Source: a virus. Taken from it: a stretch of DNA of 64,000 nucleotides. Below, in pieces: positions 35,704-46,426 of the stretch (the stretch's first letter is position 1; each line of letters opens with the position of its first letter). The notes beneath the pieces are model-generated. The model had not been told where the DNA came from and did no database searches. It saw nothing but the letters and a program-made list of their open reading frames with translations. The position numbers and the translations under genes were made by a program. The stretch spans positions 1-64,000 of the IMG/VR virus record IMGVR_UViG_3300020192_000279. One strand, written 5' to 3'.

Positions 35704-36067
35704 AATGATTTTCAAGAAATTGTGGTATCAGGTATTTGCTTCTAAGCTCTATCGTAGAGAGCGTGAAACACATCAACTCTTTCTAGATAAATGTGACGAA
35801 GTACTCAAGCTTCAATGTGAAATCAATAGACTTGAGCTACCTACGTATATTGGCAGTTGGGTAACATCACAATCCCATGCCGCGAAGCAACGTATCGTTG
35901 CTCTAGAGCATGACCTTGCGAAGATGAGTCTTGTACGCGACGCCTTGAAGCATGAAAAGGCTTACTCGCTCTTCTTAGAGGACAGTCTTATATGTCACAA
36001 CCCTGGCCAAGTATTTAATGCCCTTCCGCTTGTCAAGCGGAAAGAGTATTTTGAACGAGCACAATGA
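35693..36067 (+). CDS. Hypothetical helical protein (124 aa)
   Basis: Two in-frame starts are close: ATG 35687 and ATG 35693. The second has AGGA at proper spacing and is used. The product is almost all helix (Leu/Lys/Glu-rich, 'LFLDKCDEVLKLQCEINRLEL'), probably coiled coil, with a C-terminal 'LVKRKEYFERAQ'. Overlaps of 11 and 4 nt with neighbours show coupling inside the glycan operon. It has no enzymatic motif. It could be a scaffold for the transferases, but that is a guess. Confidence 0.5.
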   Translation: MVDKMIFKKLWYQVFASKLYRRERETHQLFLDKCDEVLKLQCEINRLELPTYIGSWVTSQSHAAKQRIVALEHDLAKMSLVRDALKHEKAYSLFLEDSLICHNPGQVFNALPLVKRKEYFERAQ

Positions 36068-37149
36068 TCAAAGTTCTTCACTATCTGCGTCACCTTGGGT
36101 TGGGCGGAACTGAGAAGACGTGTCAGTTGTTCTTTGAACACGCTGACCCGAAGCATTTTGAAGTAGCCGTAGTATACGACACTGGTGGCACTCATCCTCG
36201 TCGAGAAGAGTTTCAGAAGTCCGCCATGGTTTGTGGTGGCAAGTTGTACAGCGTAGACACGCACGGACACAGCAACGCAAACGAGTTGCAGGCTGTCATC
36301 GACGATTTCAAGCCTGACATCTTCCATGTCTACCGTAGCGGCTATCACGAGTTTCCGAGTCCTGGACACCACATCCAGGTGCCACGCTTCGTAGAGACTA
36401 ACGTGTTTGGATTCTACGACGGTAATCCAAAGATTAACAAGTCACTGTTCATGAGCAAATGGCTCATGCAGAACACCATCAAGCAGCTTGGTGTCAAGCC
36501 AGACCGCTTTGACTTCGTGAACAACCCTGTTGAGATGCCGTGTACGGGCGACGTGCTGGCAATTAGTCAGCGTTGGAAGGCCGAGGGGGCGATTGTTGTG
36601 GGTCGCTGTGGTCGTCCAGACAACGGCATCTACAACGCAGTGAGTGTTGATGCTGTTCGCCTACTACGTATGGTGGGACACGACGTTAGGTTCTTGGTGG
36701 TTGCTCCGCCGTCCAACATGATCGACGATCTAGCACGCCATGAGATCCCGTTCTACGTCATCGAACCAACAACAAGTCCCTTGGTTCTAAGCACATTCTA
36801 TAACAGCGTGGACATTTACACGCATGCCAGAGCGGATGGCGAGACCTTTGGCGTGAACATTGCTGAGGCCATGATCCATGGCAAACCAGTTATCACACAT
36901 ATCGCCACCCCAAGTGTGCCGGGTATGGGCGTGTTCCAGTCACAGACGGAGCTTGTAGACAATGGCCGTACCGGCTTTGTTGTGAACAACACTCCTGGCG
37001 AATATGCGGAAGCCTTGAAGGCCCTGATCGACGATGAGCGTTCTCGCAACATCATGGGTGAACTAGGTAGACGTAAGGCCCAAGCAGAATACGAGGTTGG
37101 CGTCTGTATGCACAAACTCGAAACCATTTACAGAGAGATAGTATCATGA
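36064..37149 (+). CDS. Glycosyltransferase, GT4 family (paralogue A)
   Basis: A 361-aa GT-B enzyme. 'VLHYLRHLGLGGTEKTCQLFF' is the N-terminal strand and glycine loop. 'PDIFHVYRSGYHEFP' and 'VETNVFGFYDG' are followed by the donor-site 'HARADGETFGVNIAEAMIHGKPV' (E-x7-E motif). The gene at 38159 is a clear paralogue: the same blocks occur in the same order ('RTCQLFCKYL', 'HRSGYTEWP', 'IETNIFGFKD', 'HARHDGECCPCNIQEAMMHG'). The two likely arose by duplication and may add related sugars. Confidence 0.82.
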   Translation: MIKVLHYLRHLGLGGTEKTCQLFFEHADPKHFEVAVVYDTGGTHPRREEFQKSAMVCGGKLYSVDTHGHSNANELQAVIDDFKPDIFHVYRSGYHEFPSPGHHIQVPRFVETNVFGFYDGNPKINKSLFMSKWLMQNTIKQLGVKPDRFDFVNNPVEMPCTGDVLAISQRWKAEGAIVVGRCGRPDNGIYNAVSVDAVRLLRMVGHDVRFLVVAPPSNMIDDLARHEIPFYVIEPTTSPLVLSTFYNSVDIYTHARADGETFGVNIAEAMIHGKPVITHIATPSVPGMGVFQSQTELVDNGRTGFVVNNTPGEYAEALKALIDDERSRNIMGELGRRKAQAEYEVGVCMHKLETIYREIVS

Positions 37150-37520
37150 AGAGTCTACGATTCGACAAGTTGTTCATCCTTGCCCGCCTCCGCGAGAACC
37201 GCAAGAAGCACGAAGAGATCTACAACGAGTCAGTGATTGGCTATCAAAAGAAGGCCATTGAACTACTGACGGAGCGTCTTGCGAAGGTGACGGCAAATCC
37301 GCTAGAGCACACTAGCATTTCGTTGTCAGTGCCACAAAATCACTTGAAGGAATACGATCGCACCATCTTGATGGTGGATCAGTGTCTCGATCTGGAGCTA
37401 GAGCTTGACGAGCAGGAGTATTCGCAATACATCCAAGACAATTGGACGTGGACGCGAGGCTTCTTGGTCGGCAACTCAGGCTACTCTTCAATGGCAGCTT
37501 CCGGCTGTGCATCACTATGA
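37146..37520 (+). CDS. Conserved phage protein, unknown (124 aa)
   Basis: A 124-aa helical protein starting by ATGA overlap. The segment 'EYDRTILMVDQCLDLELELDEQEY' with the 'DNWTWTRGFL' end resembles a small family seen in several tailed phages (order: Y-x-x-x-I-x-M, acidic stretch, WxW). It lacks catalytic residues. Sitting between two glycosyltransferases, it may be an old phage gene into which the island grew. Confidence 0.55.
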   Translation: MKSLRFDKLFILARLRENRKKHEEIYNESVIGYQKKAIELLTERLAKVTANPLEHTSISLSVPQNHLKEYDRTILMVDQCLDLELELDEQEYSQYIQDNWTWTRGFLVGNSGYSSMAASGCASL

Positions 37521-37690
37521 ACAAGAAAACAATGACAGATAAGCAAATCATGAAAATGATTAGCGAACTTGTTCAAGAAGTAGATTACGACATTTGGAAG
37601 GGCATGTTTGAAGAGGATTGTATGGAGGAGCCTGAAATGGCAAAAGAAAATCAAAAGACACTTTTGAAGATCGTGAAGAAATATCTGTAA
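37517..37690 (+). CDS. Small protein, unknown (57 aa)
   Basis: A 57-aa ORF. The frame extends upstream to 37442, but ATG 37517 makes the ATGA overlap typical of this operon. It is acidic/Lys-rich and helical ('ISELVQEVDYDIWKGMFEEDC'). It has no recognisable motif. Confidence 0.5.
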   Translation: MNKKTMTDKQIMKMISELVQEVDYDIWKGMFEEDCMEEPEMAKENQKTLLKIVKKYL

Positions 37691-37695
37691 TCCGT

Positions 37696-38172
37696 ATGAG
37701 AACTGGTCGTCCTGCAACTAATCCCATAACACGCTTATTGAATAGAATCAATAAGTGTAGCGGAGTATTTGGCGAAGACGGCAAATACGAAACAGAGTGT
37801 TGGCTCTATACGGGATATATTAACAGGCTTGGATATGGCACAGTTGGCATTCGACAGAGTTTTGTGCTCGCACACAGATTAAGCTACGAATATCATAGGG
37901 GTATTATTTCTAATAACTTATGTGTAGATCATCTATGTCGAATGCGTTCTTGTGTCAATCCAGATCATATGGAGCTTGTAACGCGAGTAGGAAATGTCAT
38001 GCGTGGCAACAGTCTTCATGCTGTCAACTTGAGGAAAACACATTGTAGTCATGGTCATGAATTTACGTTAGAAAATACAGGCATAGATGGACGCAATAGA
38101 CGTTATTGTAAACTCTGTGCTCGCGATAGACGCCGCAAGTTTCAAGGATATCAAGGTCATGGAAAAGATTAG
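37696..38172 (+). CDS. HNH homing endonuclease (HNH_3-like)
   Basis: A 158-aa endonuclease. 'ECWLYTGYINRLGYGTVGI' and 'LAHRLSYEYHRG' precede 'LCVDHLCRMRSCVNPDHMELVT', the His-Leu-Cys...Asn-Pro-x-His signature of HNH_3 homing enzymes. A C-terminal zinc/AP2-like tail follows ('CSHGHEFTLENT...YCKLC'). The gene sits between the 57-aa gene and the second GT4 paralogue, and overlaps the latter's start by 14 nt. It is AT-richer than neighbours, consistent with recent insertion. Confidence 0.85.
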   Translation: MRTGRPATNPITRLLNRINKCSGVFGEDGKYETECWLYTGYINRLGYGTVGIRQSFVLAHRLSYEYHRGIISNNLCVDHLCRMRSCVNPDHMELVTRVGNVMRGNSLHAVNLRKTHCSHGHEFTLENTGIDGRNRRYCKLCARDRRRKFQGYQGHGKD

Positions 38173-39313
38173 AGTTGTACATCACGCGAAAACTGTCGGA
38201 TTTTCTGGCACGGACAGAACTTGTCAGTTATTTTGCAAGTACCTCGCTAAAAGCGACAGGTACGAGCCGTTTATCGTCTATCGCGAAGGTGATCTGGCGA
38301 ACAATCGTTTAGAGATCGTGAAGTCGTGGCTTGGCGATGACCACGTAATTCCATACCAATGGACCCCTGGAAAGAAGGGTCGGCAAGCCCCCTACCTGCC
38401 AGAGTCGGACAACCTCTACGACGTTTTAAAGCAGATCGACCCACAGATTATGCACGTCCATCGCAGCGGCTACACAGAATGGCCCGCCTTTCGCTACATG
38501 GCACCCAAGGCTAAGTGGATAGAGACTAACATCTTCGGTTTTAAAGATAACGCACCTGAGCCGCAGATCGACGTTAACGTCTATATCTCCCAGTACATTC
38601 GCAGCACCGCCTTACGTGCCGGTAGCGTTGATGGTCCGGTATTATACAACCCGATTGAAGTGCCGGTACTCGACGTTACGACAGAGAACAAGGAAGTATG
38701 TCGCGAACATCTTCTTTCAACTTTCAAGCTACCTCATAATGCAGTTATACTTGGACGTGTAGGTCGAGCAGACAACTTTGATCCTATCTCTCTAAGAGCG
38801 TTTAAGGCTATTGAAGATGTCTATTCGAACGCCTACTACATTGTTGTAAATCCTTGTCAGGGTTGGCACGATACGGTGCGTCAGCTAGGCATTAAGAACG
38901 TTTGCTTTTCAAGCCCTATCGTCAAAGACGATGAACTGTCAAAATTCTATATGGGACTTGACATTTACGCTCACGCTCGTCATGATGGAGAGTGCTGTCC
39001 GTGCAACATCCAGGAAGCCATGATGCATGGTCTGCCGGTGGTGTCACACGAGAGCATGATCTATAACGGTCAGTCTGAGATCCTTGCTGAAAGTGGCTTT
39101 GTTGTTCCTGTTGGCAATCACGAAGCTTATCGTGACGTACTAATGCAGCTTATTGCCAATCCTGAACTCGCGACGGAAGACGAGAAGTCTACTATTCGTC
39201 TACGACAGCACTTCGGTCGCGAAGCCCGTCGTCGTGCTATGCGACACTTTGAAGCAAGTACCGTGACAGGACAGTTGATGCAAATCTACGATTGGACATT
39301 GGCAAACAAATGA
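38159..39313 (+). CDS. Glycosyltransferase, GT4 family (paralogue B)
   Basis: Start at ATG 38159, inside the end of the HNH gene with AAGGATATCAAGG ahead of it. The frame's earlier ATG at 38087 would run through the HNH gene. The 384-aa product is a paralogue of the 36064 enzyme: 'VGFSGTDRTCQLFCKYL', 'PQIMHVHRSGYTEWPAFR' and 'IETNIFGFKDNAPEP' match block by block. The donor motif reads 'HARHDGECCPCNIQEAMMHGLPV', with an odd ECCPCN where A has ETFGVN. The two Cys may bind a metal or tune the donor. Confidence 0.82.
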   Translation: MEKIRVVHHAKTVGFSGTDRTCQLFCKYLAKSDRYEPFIVYREGDLANNRLEIVKSWLGDDHVIPYQWTPGKKGRQAPYLPESDNLYDVLKQIDPQIMHVHRSGYTEWPAFRYMAPKAKWIETNIFGFKDNAPEPQIDVNVYISQYIRSTALRAGSVDGPVLYNPIEVPVLDVTTENKEVCREHLLSTFKLPHNAVILGRVGRADNFDPISLRAFKAIEDVYSNAYYIVVNPCQGWHDTVRQLGIKNVCFSSPIVKDDELSKFYMGLDIYAHARHDGECCPCNIQEAMMHGLPVVSHESMIYNGQSEILAESGFVVPVGNHEAYRDVLMQLIANPELATEDEKSTIRLRQHFGREARRRAMRHFEASTVTGQLMQIYDWTLANK

Positions 39314-39555
39314 ATATTATCAAAATTATAGATGGCTGGGATAAAAAACTCAACTTAGCTTTAAAAACAGGAAGAGGTAAGTTTGGCGGCCATACTCCAA
39401 TAGGTGATATATTTGATTACAAGAAAATCATTGAAGCTATTCGTAATGGTCAATTATGTAAGGCATTCGACTTGGCAAATGATTTAGACACTATAGCACG
39501 CGACGAGATTCCTATGACGGTTTGGAATATACTTGAAAAAGAGTATTACAAATGA
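39310..39555 (+). CDS. Small protein, unknown (81 aa)
   Basis: ATG 39310 gives an ATGA overlap. The longer frame from 39292 overlaps the transferase more and is not needed. The 81-aa product is mixed charge with Lys-rich and helical parts ('LNLALKTGRGKFGG', 'LANDLDTIARDEIP'). It has no known motif. It is coupled to the transferase-like gene after it. Confidence 0.45.
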   Translation: MNIIKIIDGWDKKLNLALKTGRGKFGGHTPIGDIFDYKKIIEAIRNGQLCKAFDLANDLDTIARDEIPMTVWNILEKEYYK

Positions 39556-40220
39556 AAATCATATCATTCTGTCTTTGGGGGAATAATCCAAAATATCTTG
39601 TTGGTGCAATGAAAAATATTGAACTCGCACGTACACTATTTCCAGACTGGACCTGTCGTTTTTATGTTGGTCAGTCAGTACCGAGCGACACTATTAAGCA
39701 ATTGCTTATCCCTAGAGATAATGTTGAGGTTGTTTGCGTGGATGAGCCGGGTGATTGGCGTATGATGTTGTATCGCTTTAGCCCTATCGGTGAAAATGAT
39801 GTAGAAGTCATGATGAGTCGTGATTGCGACTCTCGTCTTTCTTTGCGAGAAAAGCTTGCAGTTAACGAGTGGTTGGCTAGTGATAAATCATTTCATACTA
39901 TGCACTGTCACTTTCATCATTCGGTGCCGATACTTGGTGGAATGTTTGGCATTAAAAAAGGACTGTTTTCTGAGTTGTCTCGACACGCTATTGAATGGGC
40001 TCAGGCTCGTGAATCTCGATGGCAGATTGATCAAGATTTTCTAAAGGAAATTGTCTGGCCTATTGTTAAGCACGACACTTTGAATCATGCTGACTTTCAT
40101 ACTAATATTTGGCCGGGTGTTCCATTTCCTACTCCAATGACGCCTGGACATTTTATTGGTGCCACATATGATGAGAACGATAATATTGACCCGGCACAAC
40201 TGAAAGCTTTGCATGGCTAG
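39552..40220 (+). CDS. Putative glycosyltransferase-like protein (222 aa)
   Basis: A 222-aa protein starting by ATGA. 'IISFCLWGNNPKYLVGAMKNIELA' and 'VEVMMSRDCDSRLSLREKLAVNEWL' follow the pattern of small GT-like sequences in capsular and phage glycan clusters, where Asp-x-Asp in 'SRDCDSR' would bind the metal/donor. The His-rich middle ('FHTMHCHFHH') may bind metal. Weaker than the other assignments because the domain is compact. Confidence 0.6.
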   Translation: MKIISFCLWGNNPKYLVGAMKNIELARTLFPDWTCRFYVGQSVPSDTIKQLLIPRDNVEVVCVDEPGDWRMMLYRFSPIGENDVEVMMSRDCDSRLSLREKLAVNEWLASDKSFHTMHCHFHHSVPILGGMFGIKKGLFSELSRHAIEWAQARESRWQIDQDFLKEIVWPIVKHDTLNHADFHTNIWPGVPFPTPMTPGHFIGATYDENDNIDPAQLKALHG

Positions 40221-41862
40221 AAAGGCGTGTAATCCTCGATCCGTAAGGGTTATTCATTCGATGACTATATCTGATAAAACTATATGTGGAATTGCCGTTA
40301 GTTCTTTAACTAACGGCAGTAAAAAACGTGTTATTAAAACATGCGACGTATGCGGCGGTCAGTCTGAGACTACACTTGATACGATTAACAAAACTCGTCG
40401 CAAATGGTTAGCAAGGCATGAATCGAATCAATCTTCATATCTTGATTTTTGTTTTGGATGTAGTATGAAAATTAAGAATACAGGTAACATGAATGCCTCT
40501 AAACGTCAAGATGTGCGTCGAAAAATTTCGAACGCTACGAGAGGTAAGTCTAAGCGTTTTAAAGATGGAAAAAATCCACGACTTTGTGGCACGAAGCTAT
40601 CGCAAGGTGAACACGGTTATGTTTTAGTGCATGACGGTATAGAATATCACAGACAACATAGAGTTGTGATGGAGCAAGTATTGCAACGCCCATTGACCAA
40701 TGTTGAACAAGTTCATCATATTGATGGAGACAAATTAAATAATCTCGCCCATAATTTACATTTGTGTGCGTCAGACGTTGACCATAGTAAATTACATAAA
40801 CAATTAGAGTCTGTAGCTATGCAGGCTGTAAAAAGCGGTTTTATTTTCTTTGATCGCTCGCCTGGACAATATAGATTACGATCTGATTTGATGCCACGCT
40901 CATTAGGTTTTGAAGATATAGCAATTCAACAGTCATTTAATCAATGTCAATCTAGACTTGATGTAGATACAAAAAGCGAGATTTGTCGTGGCGTTTGGCT
41001 TAATGTGCCTTTGGTCGCCTCAAACATGTCTACTGTTGTTAATGCTGATTTTTGTATTTTACTTAGTAAATATGGTGCTATGGGCATTATGCATCGTGCC
41101 GCACCCGATGATATACTTATACAATCTGCAAAATCCATGGCTAGTTACTTAGAGCATATTGCCGTTTCGGTTGGCGTCGGAGACGTTCAAGTGCAATTGG
41201 CAAAAAAAATAATTCGTGCAGGTGCAACTATAGTAGTTATTGATATTGCACATGGTTTTAGTTCTGGCGTGCTAGACACCGCCAAGGCCATCAAAGTATT
41301 TAGTCCAACAACAAAAATTATTGTTGGCAATTTTGTTTGTCCAGAAGCTATACCATATTTTAATGATTATGTTGATGGTATAAAATTAGGTATTGCACAA
41401 GGCTTGGCATGTGAAACAAAAAATACTGCTGGTTGTACAGAGAAACAATTTTCTGCTATTGCTAAAATGACCGCTATATGTCGTGATTTTGGCATGCCAA
41501 TGATCAGTGATGGTGGTATTCGAGAACCCGCTGATTACACTAAGGCAATTGCTGCTGGTGCGAACGCTGTGATGGCCGGGTCTATTTTTGCTCGTTGTCC
41601 AGAATCAGCAGCAGAAATTGTGCATGTTGATGGTGTGGCTAAAAAAGTATATGCCGGTATGGCCAGTCGTTACGTACAGGACAAATGGCGTGGTATGAAA
41701 GCCGGTACATGTCCCGAGGGCAGTGTTCGATATCTTGATATTGGAGAGTCAGTTGAAAAATTAATTGAACGATATCAGGGAGCATTACGAAGTGGCGTTA
41801 CATATGCTGGCGGAAAAGACATTCAGTCGTTTCAGGCCAATGTGAAATTTATTCGTGTATAA
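40213..41862 (+). CDS. Fusion: HNH homing endonuclease + IMP dehydrogenase/GMP reductase
   Basis: A 549-aa single frame. Residues 1-221 form a complete HNH endonuclease: a CxxC zinc element ('CDVCGG'), a NUMOD3-like stretch ('NMNASKRQDVRRKISNATRG'), the catalytic 'HRVVMEQVL...QVHHIDGDKLNNLAHNL', then a typical HNH C-terminal 'FDRSPGQYRL'. Residues 222-549 are an IMPDH/GMPR barrel: 'FEDIAIQ', 'NVPLVASNMSTV', the catalytic Cys loop 'GLACETKNTAG' (Cys400), 'ISDGGIREPADYTKAIAAGANAVMAGSIFA' and C-terminal 'GALRSGVTYAGGKDI'. CBS domains are absent. No ribosome site precedes the internal Met (40888), so the fused protein is expected. The role is probably guanine-nucleotide supply for GDP-sugars. Confidence 0.85.
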   Translation: MARKACNPRSVRVIHSMTISDKTICGIAVSSLTNGSKKRVIKTCDVCGGQSETTLDTINKTRRKWLARHESNQSSYLDFCFGCSMKIKNTGNMNASKRQDVRRKISNATRGKSKRFKDGKNPRLCGTKLSQGEHGYVLVHDGIEYHRQHRVVMEQVLQRPLTNVEQVHHIDGDKLNNLAHNLHLCASDVDHSKLHKQLESVAMQAVKSGFIFFDRSPGQYRLRSDLMPRSLGFEDIAIQQSFNQCQSRLDVDTKSEICRGVWLNVPLVASNMSTVVNADFCILLSKYGAMGIMHRAAPDDILIQSAKSMASYLEHIAVSVGVGDVQVQLAKKIIRAGATIVVIDIAHGFSSGVLDTAKAIKVFSPTTKIIVGNFVCPEAIPYFNDYVDGIKLGIAQGLACETKNTAGCTEKQFSAIAKMTAICRDFGMPMISDGGIREPADYTKAIAAGANAVMAGSIFARCPESAAEIVHVDGVAKKVYAGMASRYVQDKWRGMKAGTCPEGSVRYLDIGESVEKLIERYQGALRSGVTYAGGKDIQSFQANVKFIRV

Positions 41863-41874
41863 ATAAAGAAGACT

Positions 41875-41988
41875 ATGATGAATAACATGTCGCAGCATTG
41901 CAACGTAACGCCGAGTTCATTGAGGTCACAGCAAACGGAGTTCGCGAGAACTCAGCACATGGAGAAGGAAGACTGTAAATGTCAATAA
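41875..41988 (+). CDS. Possible small ORF (37 aa)
   Basis: A short ORF with AAAGAAG before two ATGs, ending 10 nt inside the IscA gene. The product is polar with a C-terminal Cys-x-Cys. It contains a perfect hairpin (41938-41953), so the region may be an RNA leader and not coding. Weak support. Confidence 0.25.
   Translation: MMNNMSQHCNVTPSSLRSQQTEFARTQHMEKEDCKCQ
41938..41953 (+). promoter_or_regulatory. Hairpin with GNRA-type loop
   Basis: GAGTTC-GCGA-GAACTC: a perfect 6-bp stem with a GCGA tetraloop, 25 nt before the IscA start and its GAGAAGGAAG ribosome site. It lies in one of the few gaps of the operon and may control IscA translation or mRNA stability. Confidence 0.4.
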
Positions 41989-42308
41989 CTTTAACAGAGA
42001 GTGCTATTAAAGAATTAGATCGTATTATGTTAGAACAGAATCTTTCAAAAAATACATGCCTTCGTTTAGGAGTGCGGGGAGGCGGCTGTTCGGGCTTTAG
42101 CTATATTTTAGAATTCGATGACACTGTGAATGAAGTAGATCAAGTTAATGAACATGGCGGCATTACAGTTGTTTGTGATCCAAAGAGTTTTTTGTATCTT
42201 AGTGGTATGAGTGTTGACTTTGAGAACACTTTAATGAATCGTGGTTTTAAGTTCATCAATCCTAACGCAGTTAAAAGCTGTGGATGCGGCGAGTCGTTTT
42301 CGGCATGA
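41979..42308 (+). CDS. IscA/HesB-type Fe-S carrier
   Basis: A 109-aa A-type carrier that accepts and delivers Fe-S clusters. The three conserved cysteines are present: Cys37 in 'GVRGGGCSGFSY', Cys101 and Cys103 in 'SCGCGESFS'. Length and spacing match IscA/ErpA/HesB. Marine cyanophages carry a similar protein. A phage client could be the Cas4-like nuclease at 23605, which has the cysteines for a [4Fe-4S] cluster. That link is inferred. Confidence 0.9.
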   Translation: MSITLTESAIKELDRIMLEQNLSKNTCLRLGVRGGGCSGFSYILEFDDTVNEVDQVNEHGGITVVCDPKSFLYLSGMSVDFENTLMNRGFKFINPNAVKSCGCGESFSA

Positions 42309-43177
42309 CAATGCGTATTCTAGTTTCATACAGAGGAATTCCTCAGTCTCGTGGCTGGGCGACTGGGGATTGCGTCGTTCGTGCTTTTCAAGAACTTGGG
42401 CACGAAGCTGTTCCATATGGTAACTACTATCAGACACAAGAGAGACTAGAGGGCTCACGGAAGGTCTTAGAAGAAGACTGGGACTTATTCTTATTTCTTG
42501 AATGCGGCGATGGCGATCCTGTCTATACAGAGCTAATGAATGTACGGTCACGTAAGCGAGCTAGCTGGTTTTTTGATGCCGCACTCTATCCTGATCGTTG
42601 GCGAGCAATCAATAACATGTTTGGCTTTGATGTTAACTTTATGGCCAACGCCAATATGATCTACGATGGAATGTACTTGCCATACGCCGCCGACGAGAAG
42701 TTGCATTTTAGATCTTATCAAGAAAAGGTTCGTGACTTTCTAATCATAGGTTCTGATAGACCAGAACGTCGCCACCTTTACAATCTAATTAGACAATATT
42801 GTCCGGCAGCAAGAACAGATTTTTTGCATGGCGTGTTTAGAGAGCAGTACATTGATGAGATAGCTAGATCTCATTATGTTGTAAATGATGTTGCTGGTGG
42901 AGGGGGTGGTTTATTACCCATGAGATGCACCGAAACCATGGCGGCGTGTAGTGTGCTCCTCAGTGTACAAGATTCGGCCCTGCATACCATTGGCAATGAT
43001 CTTGAGCACTTTATTTCATTTCAAGACGAAAACGATCTCGTTGGCAATATTCCAAAAATGTTTTCTGTGGGAGAAAGTCTTTCCAAGAGAATTGCCACTC
43101 AGGGCCAAGAGCATTGCTTGAAGAACCATACCTACAGGAATAGATGTTCGGCTATTTTGACTAGGATATTCCCGTAA
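42305..43177 (+). CDS. Glycosyltransferase-like protein (CgeB/GT1-type, 290 aa)
   Basis: Start chosen at 42305 (ATGA overlap with IscA). The longer frame from 42284 is unnecessary. The 290-aa product begins 'MRILVSYRGIPQSRGWATGDCVVRAFQELGHEA', the fold and glycine loop of a GT-B enzyme, and has 'SHYVVNDVAGGGGGLLPMRCTETMAACSVLLS', the donor-binding helix. The C-terminal sugar-binding part is short, as in CgeB-like proteins. The 43941 gene in this operon is similar in size and layout. Confidence 0.7.
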   Translation: MTMRILVSYRGIPQSRGWATGDCVVRAFQELGHEAVPYGNYYQTQERLEGSRKVLEEDWDLFLFLECGDGDPVYTELMNVRSRKRASWFFDAALYPDRWRAINNMFGFDVNFMANANMIYDGMYLPYAADEKLHFRSYQEKVRDFLIIGSDRPERRHLYNLIRQYCPAARTDFLHGVFREQYIDEIARSHYVVNDVAGGGGGLLPMRCTETMAACSVLLSVQDSALHTIGNDLEHFISFQDENDLVGNIPKMFSVGESLSKRIATQGQEHCLKNHTYRNRCSAILTRIFP

Positions 43178-43269
43178 TTATTCCAGATAGTGCTGGACAA
43201 GATGTTGTTTTTAAGTAACCATATATATAGGCACCGTTGTTTGACGATCTTAAAAAAAGTTGTTTCCAC

Positions 43270-43944
43270 ATGAAAGAGTCTGACAAGATTAGTATTTTAG
43301 TTTGCTGTCACAGCAACGATCATGAGCACGACATGCTTTTGCAAGCTGCTCTTGAGTCTTTAACTCGACAGACGTATCAAAATTTTGAAACTGTTTTAGT
43401 GCTTGATGAGTGTCATGAAGGCACGAAATGGATAGCTGAGCCCTATAAGGATATTTTAAGTATTAAGATCCATGAGCGTCCCCATAAGCAAGGCTTGGCA
43501 ATAGCCAAGAACTTTGGTTTAGCTCGCTGTGCGGGTCAATGGGTTGCCTACCTTGATGCTGACGATCAGTGGATGGATTGTAAGCTTGAACTGCAACGCA
43601 ACTTCCTTTTAGAGAACGAGAATACGGATTTTGTATTTTGTGAAGTATGGGATAATCATGCTGGTACGCTAACTCCTAACTGTTTCAAGATTGGGCAATA
43701 CGAAACCCACGCGGCAATCGCTACTGCGATGCCGCGTGAGAATGTTGTATGTCACGGCTCAGCGTTAATTCGTAAATTAGCTATTGATTCTCTGGGTGGT
43801 TACAGTACTCACCGTTCACTATTGGGTCGCGAAGACTGGGATTTGTGGCAAAGAGCTATCGCTAATGGATTTCATTTCTATAAAATACCAGAAAGATTGT
43901 ATATTTATGGCATGGGAACTAGCGTTGTTCGTGGCGAAATATGA
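43270..43944 (+). CDS. Glycosyltransferase, GT2 family
   Basis: ATG 43270 is chosen over TTG 43237. The 92-nt gap before it holds an AT-rich stretch (ATATATATAG) and no strong ribosome site. The 224-aa enzyme has 'ISILVCCHSNDHEHDMLLQAALESLTRQTYQNFE' and 'GLAIAKNFGLARCAGQWVAYLDADDQW', the GT2 nucleotide-binding strand, acceptor helix and DxD motif (Asp96-Ala-Asp98-Asp). It ends in an ATGA overlap with the next transferase. Confidence 0.85.
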   Translation: MKESDKISILVCCHSNDHEHDMLLQAALESLTRQTYQNFETVLVLDECHEGTKWIAEPYKDILSIKIHERPHKQGLAIAKNFGLARCAGQWVAYLDADDQWMDCKLELQRNFLLENENTDFVFCEVWDNHAGTLTPNCFKIGQYETHAAIATAMPRENVVCHGSALIRKLAIDSLGGYSTHRSLLGREDWDLWQRAIANGFHFYKIPERLYIYGMGTSVVRGEI

Positions 43945-44909
43945 TGAAAAAAGTCTTGTATGTAGGTTTGTTGCATAACTATGGTAAGCCCGAAGAGGGC
44001 TTCTCATACGAGCATATGAATATTGAAGCTGGCCTTCGTGACTGTGATATGTTTGAAGTGACGTATTGGTATCCTGATTCGTACGTCTATCAAGATTCTG
44101 CCGAAGAAGTTTTCACGAGCCAGAAGTTCGACGCCATCTTTCATGTCGCCTTTAACGAATCACTAGATCTGCCTGAGGGGGTAGCAAAGCTAGCCCTCAG
44201 GCAGGATATTCCAGTCATACAATGGGATTGCGACAGCTCTTGGCGTTTCCAGAACTGGATCTTCCCGCGTCGTGACCGCGTGAGTCACTTTGTCACGACA
44301 CATTCAGCCATGGTGCCGCAGTACGAGAAGAATGGCTTGAAAGTTATTAAGTCACAGTGGGCTGGTTCCCCGGCGTATAAGGCGAATTCGGGGGTGTATA
44401 TGTACGACGCTACGTTTGTTGGCCAGAAGCATGGTCAGATGCCGAATGGCAAATTTCTACGCTCAGAGATCGTGGATGCCATTATGAATGCTGGTATCCG
44501 CGTTGACATCTTTGGTAATTACTGGGATGGCTATGCTAATTGGCATGGCTACGCGAAGGACTTTGAAGAAGTGATTCGCGTATTCAATCAGTCGCGTGTC
44601 AATTTGAATCTGTCGAATCCATGGCATCATGGAACGATGCCACAGATTAAGGGCAGGCACTTCGAAATTCCTCAGTGTCAAGGGTTTCAGATTAGTACGC
44701 CAGCAGACGATCTTGAATCTTACTTTGTACCAGACAAGGAAATAGTCATTGCCAAAAACGTTCAAGAGTTGATTGAGAAGACACAATACTATCTTGCCAA
44801 TCCAGAGGAGCGAGAGGTAATTGCTCAAGCGGGTCGTGACCGTATGCTTCGTGACCATCAATGGTACCATCGTTTCGAGTACATCTTTAAGGAAGTGGGA
44901 TTGCTATGA
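43941..44909 (+). CDS. Glycosyltransferase, CgeB/GT1_2-like
   Basis: A 322-aa GT-B-type protein. 'VLYVGLLHNYGKPEEGFSYEHMNIEAGL' is the start and 'DATFVGQKHGQMPNGKFLRSEIVDAIM' and 'VNLNLSNPWHHG' are followed by 'QIKGRHFEIPQCQGFQISTPADDLESYF', the pattern of the Glyco_trans_1_2 (CgeB) domain in spore-coat and phage glycan clusters. The C-terminus matches 'YYLANPEEREVIAQAGRDRMLRDHQW'. It is coupled to a methyltransferase gene by ATGA. Confidence 0.82.
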   Translation: MMKKVLYVGLLHNYGKPEEGFSYEHMNIEAGLRDCDMFEVTYWYPDSYVYQDSAEEVFTSQKFDAIFHVAFNESLDLPEGVAKLALRQDIPVIQWDCDSSWRFQNWIFPRRDRVSHFVTTHSAMVPQYEKNGLKVIKSQWAGSPAYKANSGVYMYDATFVGQKHGQMPNGKFLRSEIVDAIMNAGIRVDIFGNYWDGYANWHGYAKDFEEVIRVFNQSRVNLNLSNPWHHGTMPQIKGRHFEIPQCQGFQISTPADDLESYFVPDKEIVIAKNVQELIEKTQYYLANPEEREVIAQAGRDRMLRDHQWYHRFEYIFKEVGLL

Positions 44910-45439
44910 GATTGAATCTAGCATCACACGGCGACAACCGCGAAGGTTACGTCAACATTGATTACGATCATCCCTCGGCAGACCTCAAGGCCGATGTTTC
45001 GGCACTGCCGTACGAGGAAGATTCGGTAGATCAGATCCTGGCTTACCACATTCTCGAACACTTTCGAGCCGGTGAGTACGAGCCACAACTATCGAATCCG
45101 CTCAATCCCAAGACAGCAATGGCTGCTCTTGCTGAGTGGCGTCGAGTCCTGAAACCGGGCGGCACACTAGAGATCAAGGTGCCGGACTTCGAGAAGATCG
45201 TTTGGCTTTACTTCAACTTCCCTCAATGGGCCAGAGCAGAATCCAGCGTCAACGCTCCATTTGGTAGCTACTCGGATTGGGTTGTATCTAACGGGCAGCA
45301 CCAGTGCCTCTTCGACAAGAAGGCCATGCACAAGCTTCTGACGTTGTGTGGCTTCAAGGACATCACGTTCGTTGACTCGCCAGCGGTTGCCGTAATTGAC
45401 AGAGCGAATTTAGAGATGTATGTAATCTGCTCTAAGTGA
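44906..45439 (+). CDS. SAM-dependent methyltransferase (type 11)
   Basis: A 177-aa class I methyltransferase. 'LNLASHGDNREGYVNIDYDH' is the first strand and acidic loop, 'DQILAYHILEHF' the second, and 'EWRRVLKPGGTLEIKVPDFEKIV' the typical motif III strand. It would methylate a sugar or other small group in the glycan pathway. One of four such enzymes in the island. Confidence 0.75.
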   Translation: MRLNLASHGDNREGYVNIDYDHPSADLKADVSALPYEEDSVDQILAYHILEHFRAGEYEPQLSNPLNPKTAMAALAEWRRVLKPGGTLEIKVPDFEKIVWLYFNFPQWARAESSVNAPFGSYSDWVVSNGQHQCLFDKKAMHKLLTLCGFKDITFVDSPAVAVIDRANLEMYVICSK

Positions 45440-45807
45440 TGGTACGCACATACAAAACACTTGAGTTTGGTAGAGCTTCTGGCAATGAAGTATGGCGGTC
45501 ATACATCGCTCGTGCCGCATCTAAGGGACTGGCTTGGGAATTGACACGCTGTGAATTTGATGCACTGATATCTCGATCATGTGTCTATTGCAGTAGACCT
45601 CCCGGCAACATCAAAAACAACGGCAGAAACTATGGCCATTTGTTTTACAATGGCATTGATAGAGTTGACAATCGTCTCGGATACATCAAGAGTAATGTAG
45701 TCTCGTGCTGTGCCATCTGTAACAGAGCTAAAGGCACGCTCACCACACAAGAATTCGATCTATGGATTCATGATCTCATGCGAGTACAACATGGACTACC
45801 AAACTAG
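45439..45807 (+). CDS. HNH homing endonuclease
   Basis: Start at ATG 45439 (1-nt overlap with the upstream stop). A 122-aa HNH protein: 'CVYCSRPPG', then 'YGHLFYNGIDRVDN' and 'VVSCCAICNRAKGTL', the Cys-x-x-Cys ... Asp-Arg-x-Asp-Asn ... Cys-x-x-Cys-Asn layout. It is clearly paralogous to the 46426 gene, which flanks the other side of the methyltransferase at 45791. It fills the junction between two operon genes. Confidence 0.85.
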   Translation: MVRTYKTLEFGRASGNEVWRSYIARAASKGLAWELTRCEFDALISRSCVYCSRPPGNIKNNGRNYGHLFYNGIDRVDNRLGYIKSNVVSCCAICNRAKGTLTTQEFDLWIHDLMRVQHGLPN

Positions 45808-46426
45808 ACGCGACAATCACGACTTCATGACCGAAGAGCACATCTCGGTGTTCCTACGTAATCACAACACGGGCACGGACAACCTGGGTCGTCATCGCCT
45901 AGCAGCTATCGTTCGCGAACACGCGAAGCCAATGGTGCTTGACGTAGCCTGCGGGACCTGCGTTACGTGGGAGGTCATGAAGGCCGTTGGCGTTGACTGC
46001 CAATACTGGGGCTTTGATCGCACCGAAAAGATGCTCGCCCACGCCAGAGCCCTGTATGGCGATGAGATCTACCTCCGCAAAGGCTTCATCCAATCTCTTC
46101 CTTTTGAAGCTGATTCTTTTGACATCGTTATTGCTCGCCACATTCTCGAACACTTAGGCGAAGGTTATGAACAAGCAATCAAGGAAGTCTATCGCGTTGC
46201 GTCGAAAGAGGCGATCGTTATTCTTTTCGAGGACTTGGCCGACATGCCGCACGATGTCATCAAGGAGTCAGAGCCAGACGAGAATGATTGTACCTACTTC
46301 TGGAACACATATGCTCATGATAAGTTCATGACCTTCCTTGGTACACTGGGATGCCAAGTCAAGGTGGAGTACGTTCGTACGCCCGGTGCTGCTGCTAATG
46401 ATACGATCATTCGACTTATCAAATAA
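45791..46426 (+). CDS. SAM-dependent methyltransferase
   Basis: ATG 45791 is used. The frame reaches back to 45710, inside the HNH gene. The 211-aa enzyme has the SAM-binding loop 'PMVLDVACGTCVTWEVMKAVG', 'CQYWGFDRTEKMLAHARALYG', and 'DSFDIVIARHILEHLG' with the typical acidic/Leu strand. A methyltransferase of a sugar or other glycan group is likely. It is flanked on both sides by HNH genes. Confidence 0.78.
   Translation: MDYQTRRDNHDFMTEEHISVFLRNHNTGTDNLGRHRLAAIVREHAKPMVLDVACGTCVTWEVMKAVGVDCQYWGFDRTEKMLAHARALYGDEIYLRKGFIQSLPFEADSFDIVIARHILEHLGEGYEQAIKEVYRVASKEAIVILFEDLADMPHDVIKESEPDENDCTYFWNTYAHDKFMTFLGTLGCQVKVEYVRTPGAAANDTIIRLIK

Follow-up and report, generated by a model that had tools for sequence, protein, structure and literature searches.

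An open reading frame in a viral contig joins an HNH homing-type endonuclease to a barrel enzyme of the GMP reductase (GMPR)/IMP dehydrogenase (IMPDH) family, and the two ends of another GMPR gene, intact in a closely related phage, still flank it. We consider this frame to be probably a mobile homing cassette that couples an HNH endonuclease, by translational fusion, to a GMPR-like enzyme both divergent and self-sufficient, and that has displaced the phage's own GMPR. A selfish gene that captured a metabolic gene was one of the two possibilities raised in a preliminary description of this DNA, and it fits the evidence. That account was incomplete, as it missed the replaced resident GMPR with its flanking ends and the resident and decayed-nuclease states of the sister phages.

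The fusion occupies a single frame

The stretch analysed here (the window, 64,000 nucleotides) is part of a 107-kb viral contig. Its fusion is one uninterrupted frame of 549 codons, with the HNH homing-type endonuclease in its N-terminal half and a CBS-less IMPDH/GMPR barrel behind it (Table 1). The first 16 residues (40213-40260) derive from intergenic DNA and the remnant of another gene, so that a start at 40261 is more likely; the 549-residue frame first described therefore stands as an open frame, and its first 16 residues are probably not the coding start. AlphaFold2, run with a 27-sequence alignment, predicted two well-folded parts (mean pLDDT 88.4) whose relative placement is uncertain (pTM 0.65), low confidence being confined to approximately residues 94-107 of the 533-residue form.

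As the window is a metagenome contig, an assembly chimera or a frameshift error could in principle produce such an architecture. L002, a contig assembled independently from another dataset, has the same fusion and matches the window at 99.7% identity across 5 kb, both junctions included, while L001 and L003 carry a shortened fusion in the same frame as the window; the GMPR halves of all four are nearly identical. An assembly error is therefore excluded, the chance of a chimera being negligible, and the HNH-GMPR fusion is real. The in-frame joining of a whole HNH enzyme to a whole IMPDH/GMPR barrel, as proposed in the preliminary description, is thus borne out by the single frame, by Pfam and PHROG matches and by L002.

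Table 1. Features of the fusion locus, in window coordinates
Feature	Position	Strand	Remarks
HNH-GMPR fusion ORF	40213..41862	+	549 codons listed; probable true start 40261, giving 533 codons; architecture identical in L002
5' remnant of displaced resident GMPR (MIRKGYSFDD)	40238..40265	+	28 bp, 93% nucleotide identity to L008 3218-3245, where the intact resident gene begins
HNH endonuclease domain, PHROG 19902 type	40261..40890	+	PHROG match; well-folded in AlphaFold model
First CxxC, probable zinc element	40342..40353	+	kept in 9/9 fused lineages
Second CxxC, probable zinc element	40450..40461	+	kept in 9/9 fused lineages
HNH catalytic motif HHIDGDKLNN..N..H	40714..40800	+	HNH_3 PF13392 match; second His is Tyr in L001 and L003
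GMPR/IMPDH-family barrel, replacement copy	40891..41859	+	~30% identical to resident enzyme
Catalytic Cys400 codon	41410..41412	+	loop GLACETKNTAGCTEKQ; CxT kept in 18/18 clade members
3' remnant of displaced resident GMPR (VAALQRNAEFIEVTANGVRENSAHGEGRL-stop)	41887..41978	+	92 bp, within 98% blastn match to L008 from 4240
A-type Fe-S carrier (IscA-like) gene, downstream collinear neighbour	41979..42308	+	98% identical in L008

The nuclease half

The N-terminal half is a predicted HNH homing-type endonuclease. It matches PHROG HNH family 19902 over residues 77-225 (E 2e-20), and Pfam HNH_3 (PF13392) aligns with residues 149-185 just short of its cut-off (21.2 vs 24.8 bits); the score is also just under the cut-off in L186 and exceeds it in seven fused relatives. 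The catalytic HH..N..H residues are present in all nine full-length fusions and lost in L001 and L003. At one and the same site, the window and L002 possess the fusion and L008, with flanks 98% identical, is without it, a present/absent polymorphism.

No intron or intein was found in the window gene. A group I intron-encoded endonuclease was rejected, as no Rfam family reached gathering scores in the window and only a chance-level match was seen locally; an intein was rejected as the nuclease lies N-terminal to a complete barrel, not inside an extein frame, with no splicing-out.

Further HNH-type ORFs are located close to the locus, at window 37696-38172 and 45436-45807, the second recognised by eye only and without a Pfam match. 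Stretches matching window ~37142-38147 and 45424-45791 are absent from L008 or swapped for a few bases; with the cassette and both neighbouring HNH stretches missing, L008 lacks all three nuclease ORFs of the region. Elsewhere, relatives of the window's HNH type lie between two thymidylate synthase pieces in Alteromonas phage AD45-P1 (L013:1401-3666) and inside a joined thymidylate synthase CDS in Vibrio phage pVa5 (L011:1524-2933).

The enzyme half is GMPR-like

The barrel is more likely a divergent GMPR-like enzyme, different from standard GuaC, than an IMPDH. Pfam IMPDH (PF00478) spans residues 231-549 (E 5e-62), and the C-terminal part aligns by Foldseek with IMPDH catalytic domains (TM 0.84 by target, E 1.6e-33); the top 50 matches are all IMPDH catalytic domains, a result that gives no discrimination between GMPR and IMPDH. 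The flap is short and of the GMP reductase type, with 22 residues in the window and 22-23 in the clade and without the Arg-Tyr dyad, compared with 23 residues in E. coli GuaC and 33, with DRY, in an IMPDH reference. Pfam found no CBS domain in the window enzyme. The scores stay below both curated cut-offs, that of the GMP reductase equivalog (156.6 vs 344 bits) and that of IMP dehydrogenase TIGR01302 (173 vs 481.5 bits), and for this reason we use the label 'GMPR-like' only. IMPDH was rejected on the missing CBS domain, the missing Arg-Tyr dyad and the TIGR01302 score. Of the IMPDH assignment made earlier, the CBS-less IMPDH/GMPR barrel and its catalytic Cys400 are retained, and a clear IMPDH is not.

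The enzyme shares with the phage GMPR/IMPDH-like proteins of PHROG 9582 a CBS-less barrel, a catalytic Cys loop and a short flap; it differs from them in belonging to a distinct clade of fused enzymes, set on a long branch (100/100 support), whose active loop is of the ACET..AGCTE.Q type. No close relative was found in GenBank phages and plasmids, where identity reached ~30% at most, and a first scan of bacterial genomes found no close enzyme relatives. A second bacterial-genome scan returned one stand-alone enzyme (L194, on a Deltaproteobacteria MAG contig) and one ordinary IMPDH.

The fusion displaced a resident GMPR

A search for the beginning of the resident gene (MIRKGYSFDD...) led to L008, whose flanks on either side match the window at 98% identity (window 38147-40237 and 41887-45424). 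Between these flanks L008 holds a small 148-aa ORF and an intact 371-aa resident GMPR, ~30% identical to the fused enzyme. Both ends of this resident gene remain in the window. The 3' remnant is identical to the L008 enzyme in 29/29 residues (E 8e-14) and scores 29.8 bits with a C-terminal profile, against 12.8 for the best control in 443 kb of control DNA; at the 5' end the resident start codon and Shine-Dalgarno (SD) sequence are deleted in the window and kept in L001 and L003. Since both ends of an L008-type resident gene flank the fusion, the gene displaced was one of the same kind, and the fusion is, as read from these alignments, a cassette that displaced the resident GMPR. The exchange appears to have been one for one, as each of six searched contigs of the window's phage group has a single GMPR. 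The more distant phages L007 and L009 carry a resident-type GMPR in the same neighbourhood. GC3 is 0.27 in the HNH, 0.25 in the replacement GMPR and 0.52 in the resident, and the low value shared by the first two is consistent with their arrival as a unit.

Several other features of the region were recorded. The 148-aa ORF upstream of the resident GMPR (L008:2773-3219) contains Cys residues, has no Pfam match and is missing along with the resident gene in the cassette-bearing phages. An unusual series of glycosyltransferase- and methyltransferase-like genes surrounds the locus (window 36064-46426). In L114, a free-standing HNH ORF (L114:2296-3309) lies immediately downstream of an intact IscA-like gene and ends in KCGCGESFAV; this tail resembles the C-terminus of a further IscA gene, and another gene may here have undergone the same kind of replacement with a remnant left.

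Decay of the nuclease in sister contigs

Comparison of these near-identical phages distinguishes three allele states at the locus: the resident gene in L008, the intact fusion in the window and L002, and a decayed fusion in L001 and L003. In the last two the HNH has lost its N-terminus by deletion and has HY in place of the catalytic HH, but is still in frame with the GMPR. Over the remaining 285 bp of HNH the window differs from L001/L003 by 6 nonsynonymous and 2 synonymous changes, and over 972 bp of GMPR by 1 nonsynonymous and 0-1 synonymous change. Both contigs retain the SD and start codon of the resident gene (AAGGAAGGCTTAAATG). This start opens a 12-codon leader overlapping the HNH start in L001; in L003, an extra 10-bp deletion between GATGA repeats brings it in frame with the HNH-GMPR, which suggests selection for continued translation of the fusion.

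Eighteen lineages of the enzyme clade

An alignment-based search with the HNH part retrieved the same fusion from two unrelated contigs of 160 and 208 kb (L103 and L119), and searches with the enzyme part raised the total to 18 lineages. Nine have the HNH-GMPR fusion (the window, L103, L119, L186, L190, L191, L204, L205 and L216). In L207 the fusion partner of the GMPR, joined at the same spot, is another homing endonuclease, of the PHROG 3377/8790 type. Two lineages keep a nuclease tail only (an HNH tail in L185 and an HTH-like tail in L189, at L189:3336-4481), and five clade members have the enzyme without nuclease (L187, L188, L194, L211 and L217). L212 contains a LAGLIDADG intein in the active-site flap of its GMPR. 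The L207 frame (L207:3012-4496) has a C-terminal HTH; the intein of L212 (L212:3489-5555; also in L213 and L215) has the junctions GMS^C...N^S and is a third homing-element class in one enzyme family.

Among the nine fusions the GMPRs are 48-80% and the HNHs 26-71% identical, none of them having lost either Cys pair or the HH..N..H residues. The fused-enzyme clade stands apart from all other examined phage GMPRs on a long branch (support 100/100), and no nuclease fusion was found among 77 other viral GMPRs in a broader search. A fusion suspected in the huge phage LR756508 (H59) proved to be an ordinary barrel with no HNH. The fused HNHs form one group in a six-member tree, with support of only 69/93, and may have a single origin. 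Co-inheritance of HNH and GMPR was also sought by distance correlation (Mantel): r was 0.61 for all nine, driven by one close pair, and -0.03 once that pair was omitted; as the correlation vanishes, strict co-inheritance is not used as evidence here.

These lineages bear on whether the frame is the product of accidental read-through, that is, two genes of which the first recently lost its stop codon in one phage, the GMPR being made from an internal start. The window does have an ATG 3 codons ahead of the GMPR core, as such a reading would expect, but another eight divergent lineages share the in-frame fusion, and the lost HNH stop codon proposed earlier is therefore not a recent local loss. 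The absence of a ribosome site before the internal Met, also noted in the preliminary description, holds: no SD was found there, nor at internal starts near the core in ten fusions. Moreover, L103, L119, L186 and L190 have no ATG, GTG or TTG within ~40 codons upstream of the GMPR core, and an SD is present at the HNH start in L119, L186 and L190. With no start codon near the barrel core, these four lineages can make GMPR solely as a fusion, and we judge accidental read-through to be very improbable.

The same observations could be taken to indicate a selected bifunctional enzyme, whose HNH and GMPR cooperate and whose coupling is useful, so that the unit is not selfish; degradation of host or competitor DNA might be coupled to purine recycling, or the nuclease might be gated by purine nucleotides bound to the barrel. 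Conservation of the fusion and of both active sites across nine lineages would suit such an enzyme, as would the four lineages in which GMPR is made solely as a fusion. Against this, the enzyme is intact in the five lineages with no nuclease and in the two with a tail only, an unrelated homing endonuclease fills the nuclease slot in L207, the HNH decays in L001 and L003 and the GMPR does not, and resident genes of the same kind are displaced. We regard cooperation between the two halves as unlikely to explain the fusion. The choice between a bifunctional protein and selfish capture, as first posed, is not an exclusive one, as the four fusion-only lineages illustrate.

Repeated displacement of resident GMPR genes

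We scanned the flanks of all clade members, and 443 kb of control DNA, with a profile built on the N-terminus of other phage GMPRs. L119 has a 47-codon 5' remnant of a resident GMPR directly upstream of the cassette on the same strand (61.5 bits). L216 has a short ORF in the same position and orientation (17.6 bits), with a TGA that overlaps the HNH ATG. The control maximum was 9.6 bits; the ten-residue 5' remnant of the window scored 10.7 bits, being too short for the profile score alone, and is carried by its nucleotide match to L008. The insertion point in the resident gene lies after codon 10 in the window and at ~codon 43 in L119. As judged by these profile matches, L119 and L216 are further insertions behind 5' remnants of resident GMPRs and independent repeats of the replacement. 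Matches in the flanks of L186, L190, L191 and L204 were weak and at control level, and those at L211 and L212 were located at these genes' own starts; all were rejected.

The repeats also weigh on the possibility that the nuclease is a passive passenger, in which case ordinary illegitimate phage recombination swapped the GMPR and an upstream HNH, fused by chance, did not drive the event. Such recombination would leave non-homologous junctions, as both are in the window, and HNH genes are frequent in such phages, with others within a few kb of the locus. Yet three cassettes displaced the same kind of gene, each starting directly behind the resident 5' remnant, and the catalytic HNH residues, for which a passenger has no need, are kept in 9/9 full-length fusions. 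A passive passenger thus seems to us a rather improbable account of the locus.

Proposed mechanism

In the mechanism that we infer for the homing cassette, the enzymatic activities, a cleavage site, homing as the driver and a protective role of the fusion would combine as follows. During mixed infection the HNH part would nick or cut the resident GMPR of a competing phage, presumably near its 5' end, since the insertions are located there. Repair would then copy in the cassette with its own GMPR, so that the resident allele would be lost and purine function restored; the replacement GMPR would presumably remain uncut, as it is only ~30% identical to the resident. A stop codon or frameshift in the upstream nuclease would remove the enzyme as well, and the shared frame would penalise such losses. 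This would leave missense changes or in-frame deletions as routes of nuclease decay, matching L001, L003 and L185. As the junctions are non-homologous, the cassette probably first entered each resident gene by illegitimate recombination, and homing may account for later spread.

Four observations count against a homing cassette. In five clade members the GMPR occurs with no nuclease, on which it therefore does not depend; resident remnants are found in only 3/9 fused lineages (the window, L119 and L216); HNH and GMPR divergences are uncorrelated without the closest pair; and neither junction in the window is homologous. More tentatively, and as something we think possible rather than probable, the family may constitute a natural single-polypeptide cleave-and-rescue selfish element, in which homing endonucleases are repeatedly fused to a cleavage-resistant substitute of the gene they destroy, the shared frame protecting the nuclease from stop codons and frameshifts. 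Of the parts of this comparison, the linkage of nuclease and GMPR and the gene replacement are observed; the nuclease target and the function of the substitute are putative.

Relation to known systems and implications

Homing endonucleases are usually encoded by separate genes or within introns or inteins, and they are believed to decay when no target sites are left. The nuclease described here is welded to a useful enzyme that replaces the displaced gene.

When phages infect a cell together, homing enzymes of the HNH type introduce nicks or cuts into a related genome, and the donor sequence is copied in along with its neighbours during repair (PMC2988022). In T4-like phages the free-standing homing endonucleases SegF, next to gene 56, and SegG, next to gene 32, contribute in this way to the exclusion of T2 markers by T4: the endonuclease gene lies beside its target gene, the rival's allele is cut, and the linked resistant allele spreads with its flanking sequence (PMC2988022). 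In SegF and SegG the nuclease and the protected gene are separate ORFs and recombination proceeds via homologous flanks, whereas here they form one polypeptide and the replacement enzyme is only ~30% identical to the displaced one. MobE inside nrdA of phage Aeh1 and MobA inside T4 gene 60 are alike in that a homing gene sits within a gene of nucleotide metabolism or replication (PMC2988022); there the host gene is split and both pieces cooperate, whereas here little of the host gene is left and the insert supplies an entire replacement. Among intein- and intron-encoded homing endonucleases, phiPA3 gp210, a nuclease related in kind, is likewise an HNH nuclease acting between competing phages and mediates interference during co-infection (PMC11620839). 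In contrast to that type, the window gene has no intron or intein and its nuclease stays attached; the relative L212 does carry an intein. The engineered Cleave-and-Rescue and home-and-rescue drives follow a like logic, setting a nuclease against a gene and linking it to a cleavage-resistant copy (PMC7951863, PMC7968924), but they are synthetic Cas9 systems in insects, whereas ours is a natural phage element in one ORF whose cleavage is putative.

In the open-licence literature we found no paper that brings together homing endonuclease, GMP reductase and phage, and no description of the HNH-GMPR architecture with displaced-gene remains. Homing endonucleases, GMPR and marker exclusion are already known; a conserved fusion of a nuclease to a replacement enzyme, with the remains of the displaced gene, was not found there.

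To conclude, the related genomes display a series of stages, comprising the empty site, the intact fusion, a decaying nuclease, a nuclease tail only and the enzyme alone, and they open the question of whether fusion to a needed enzyme slows the decay of a selfish nuclease. If cleavage is confirmed, the element would be a natural counterpart of engineered rescue drives and would represent a route by which phages exchange metabolic genes for very distant versions of them.
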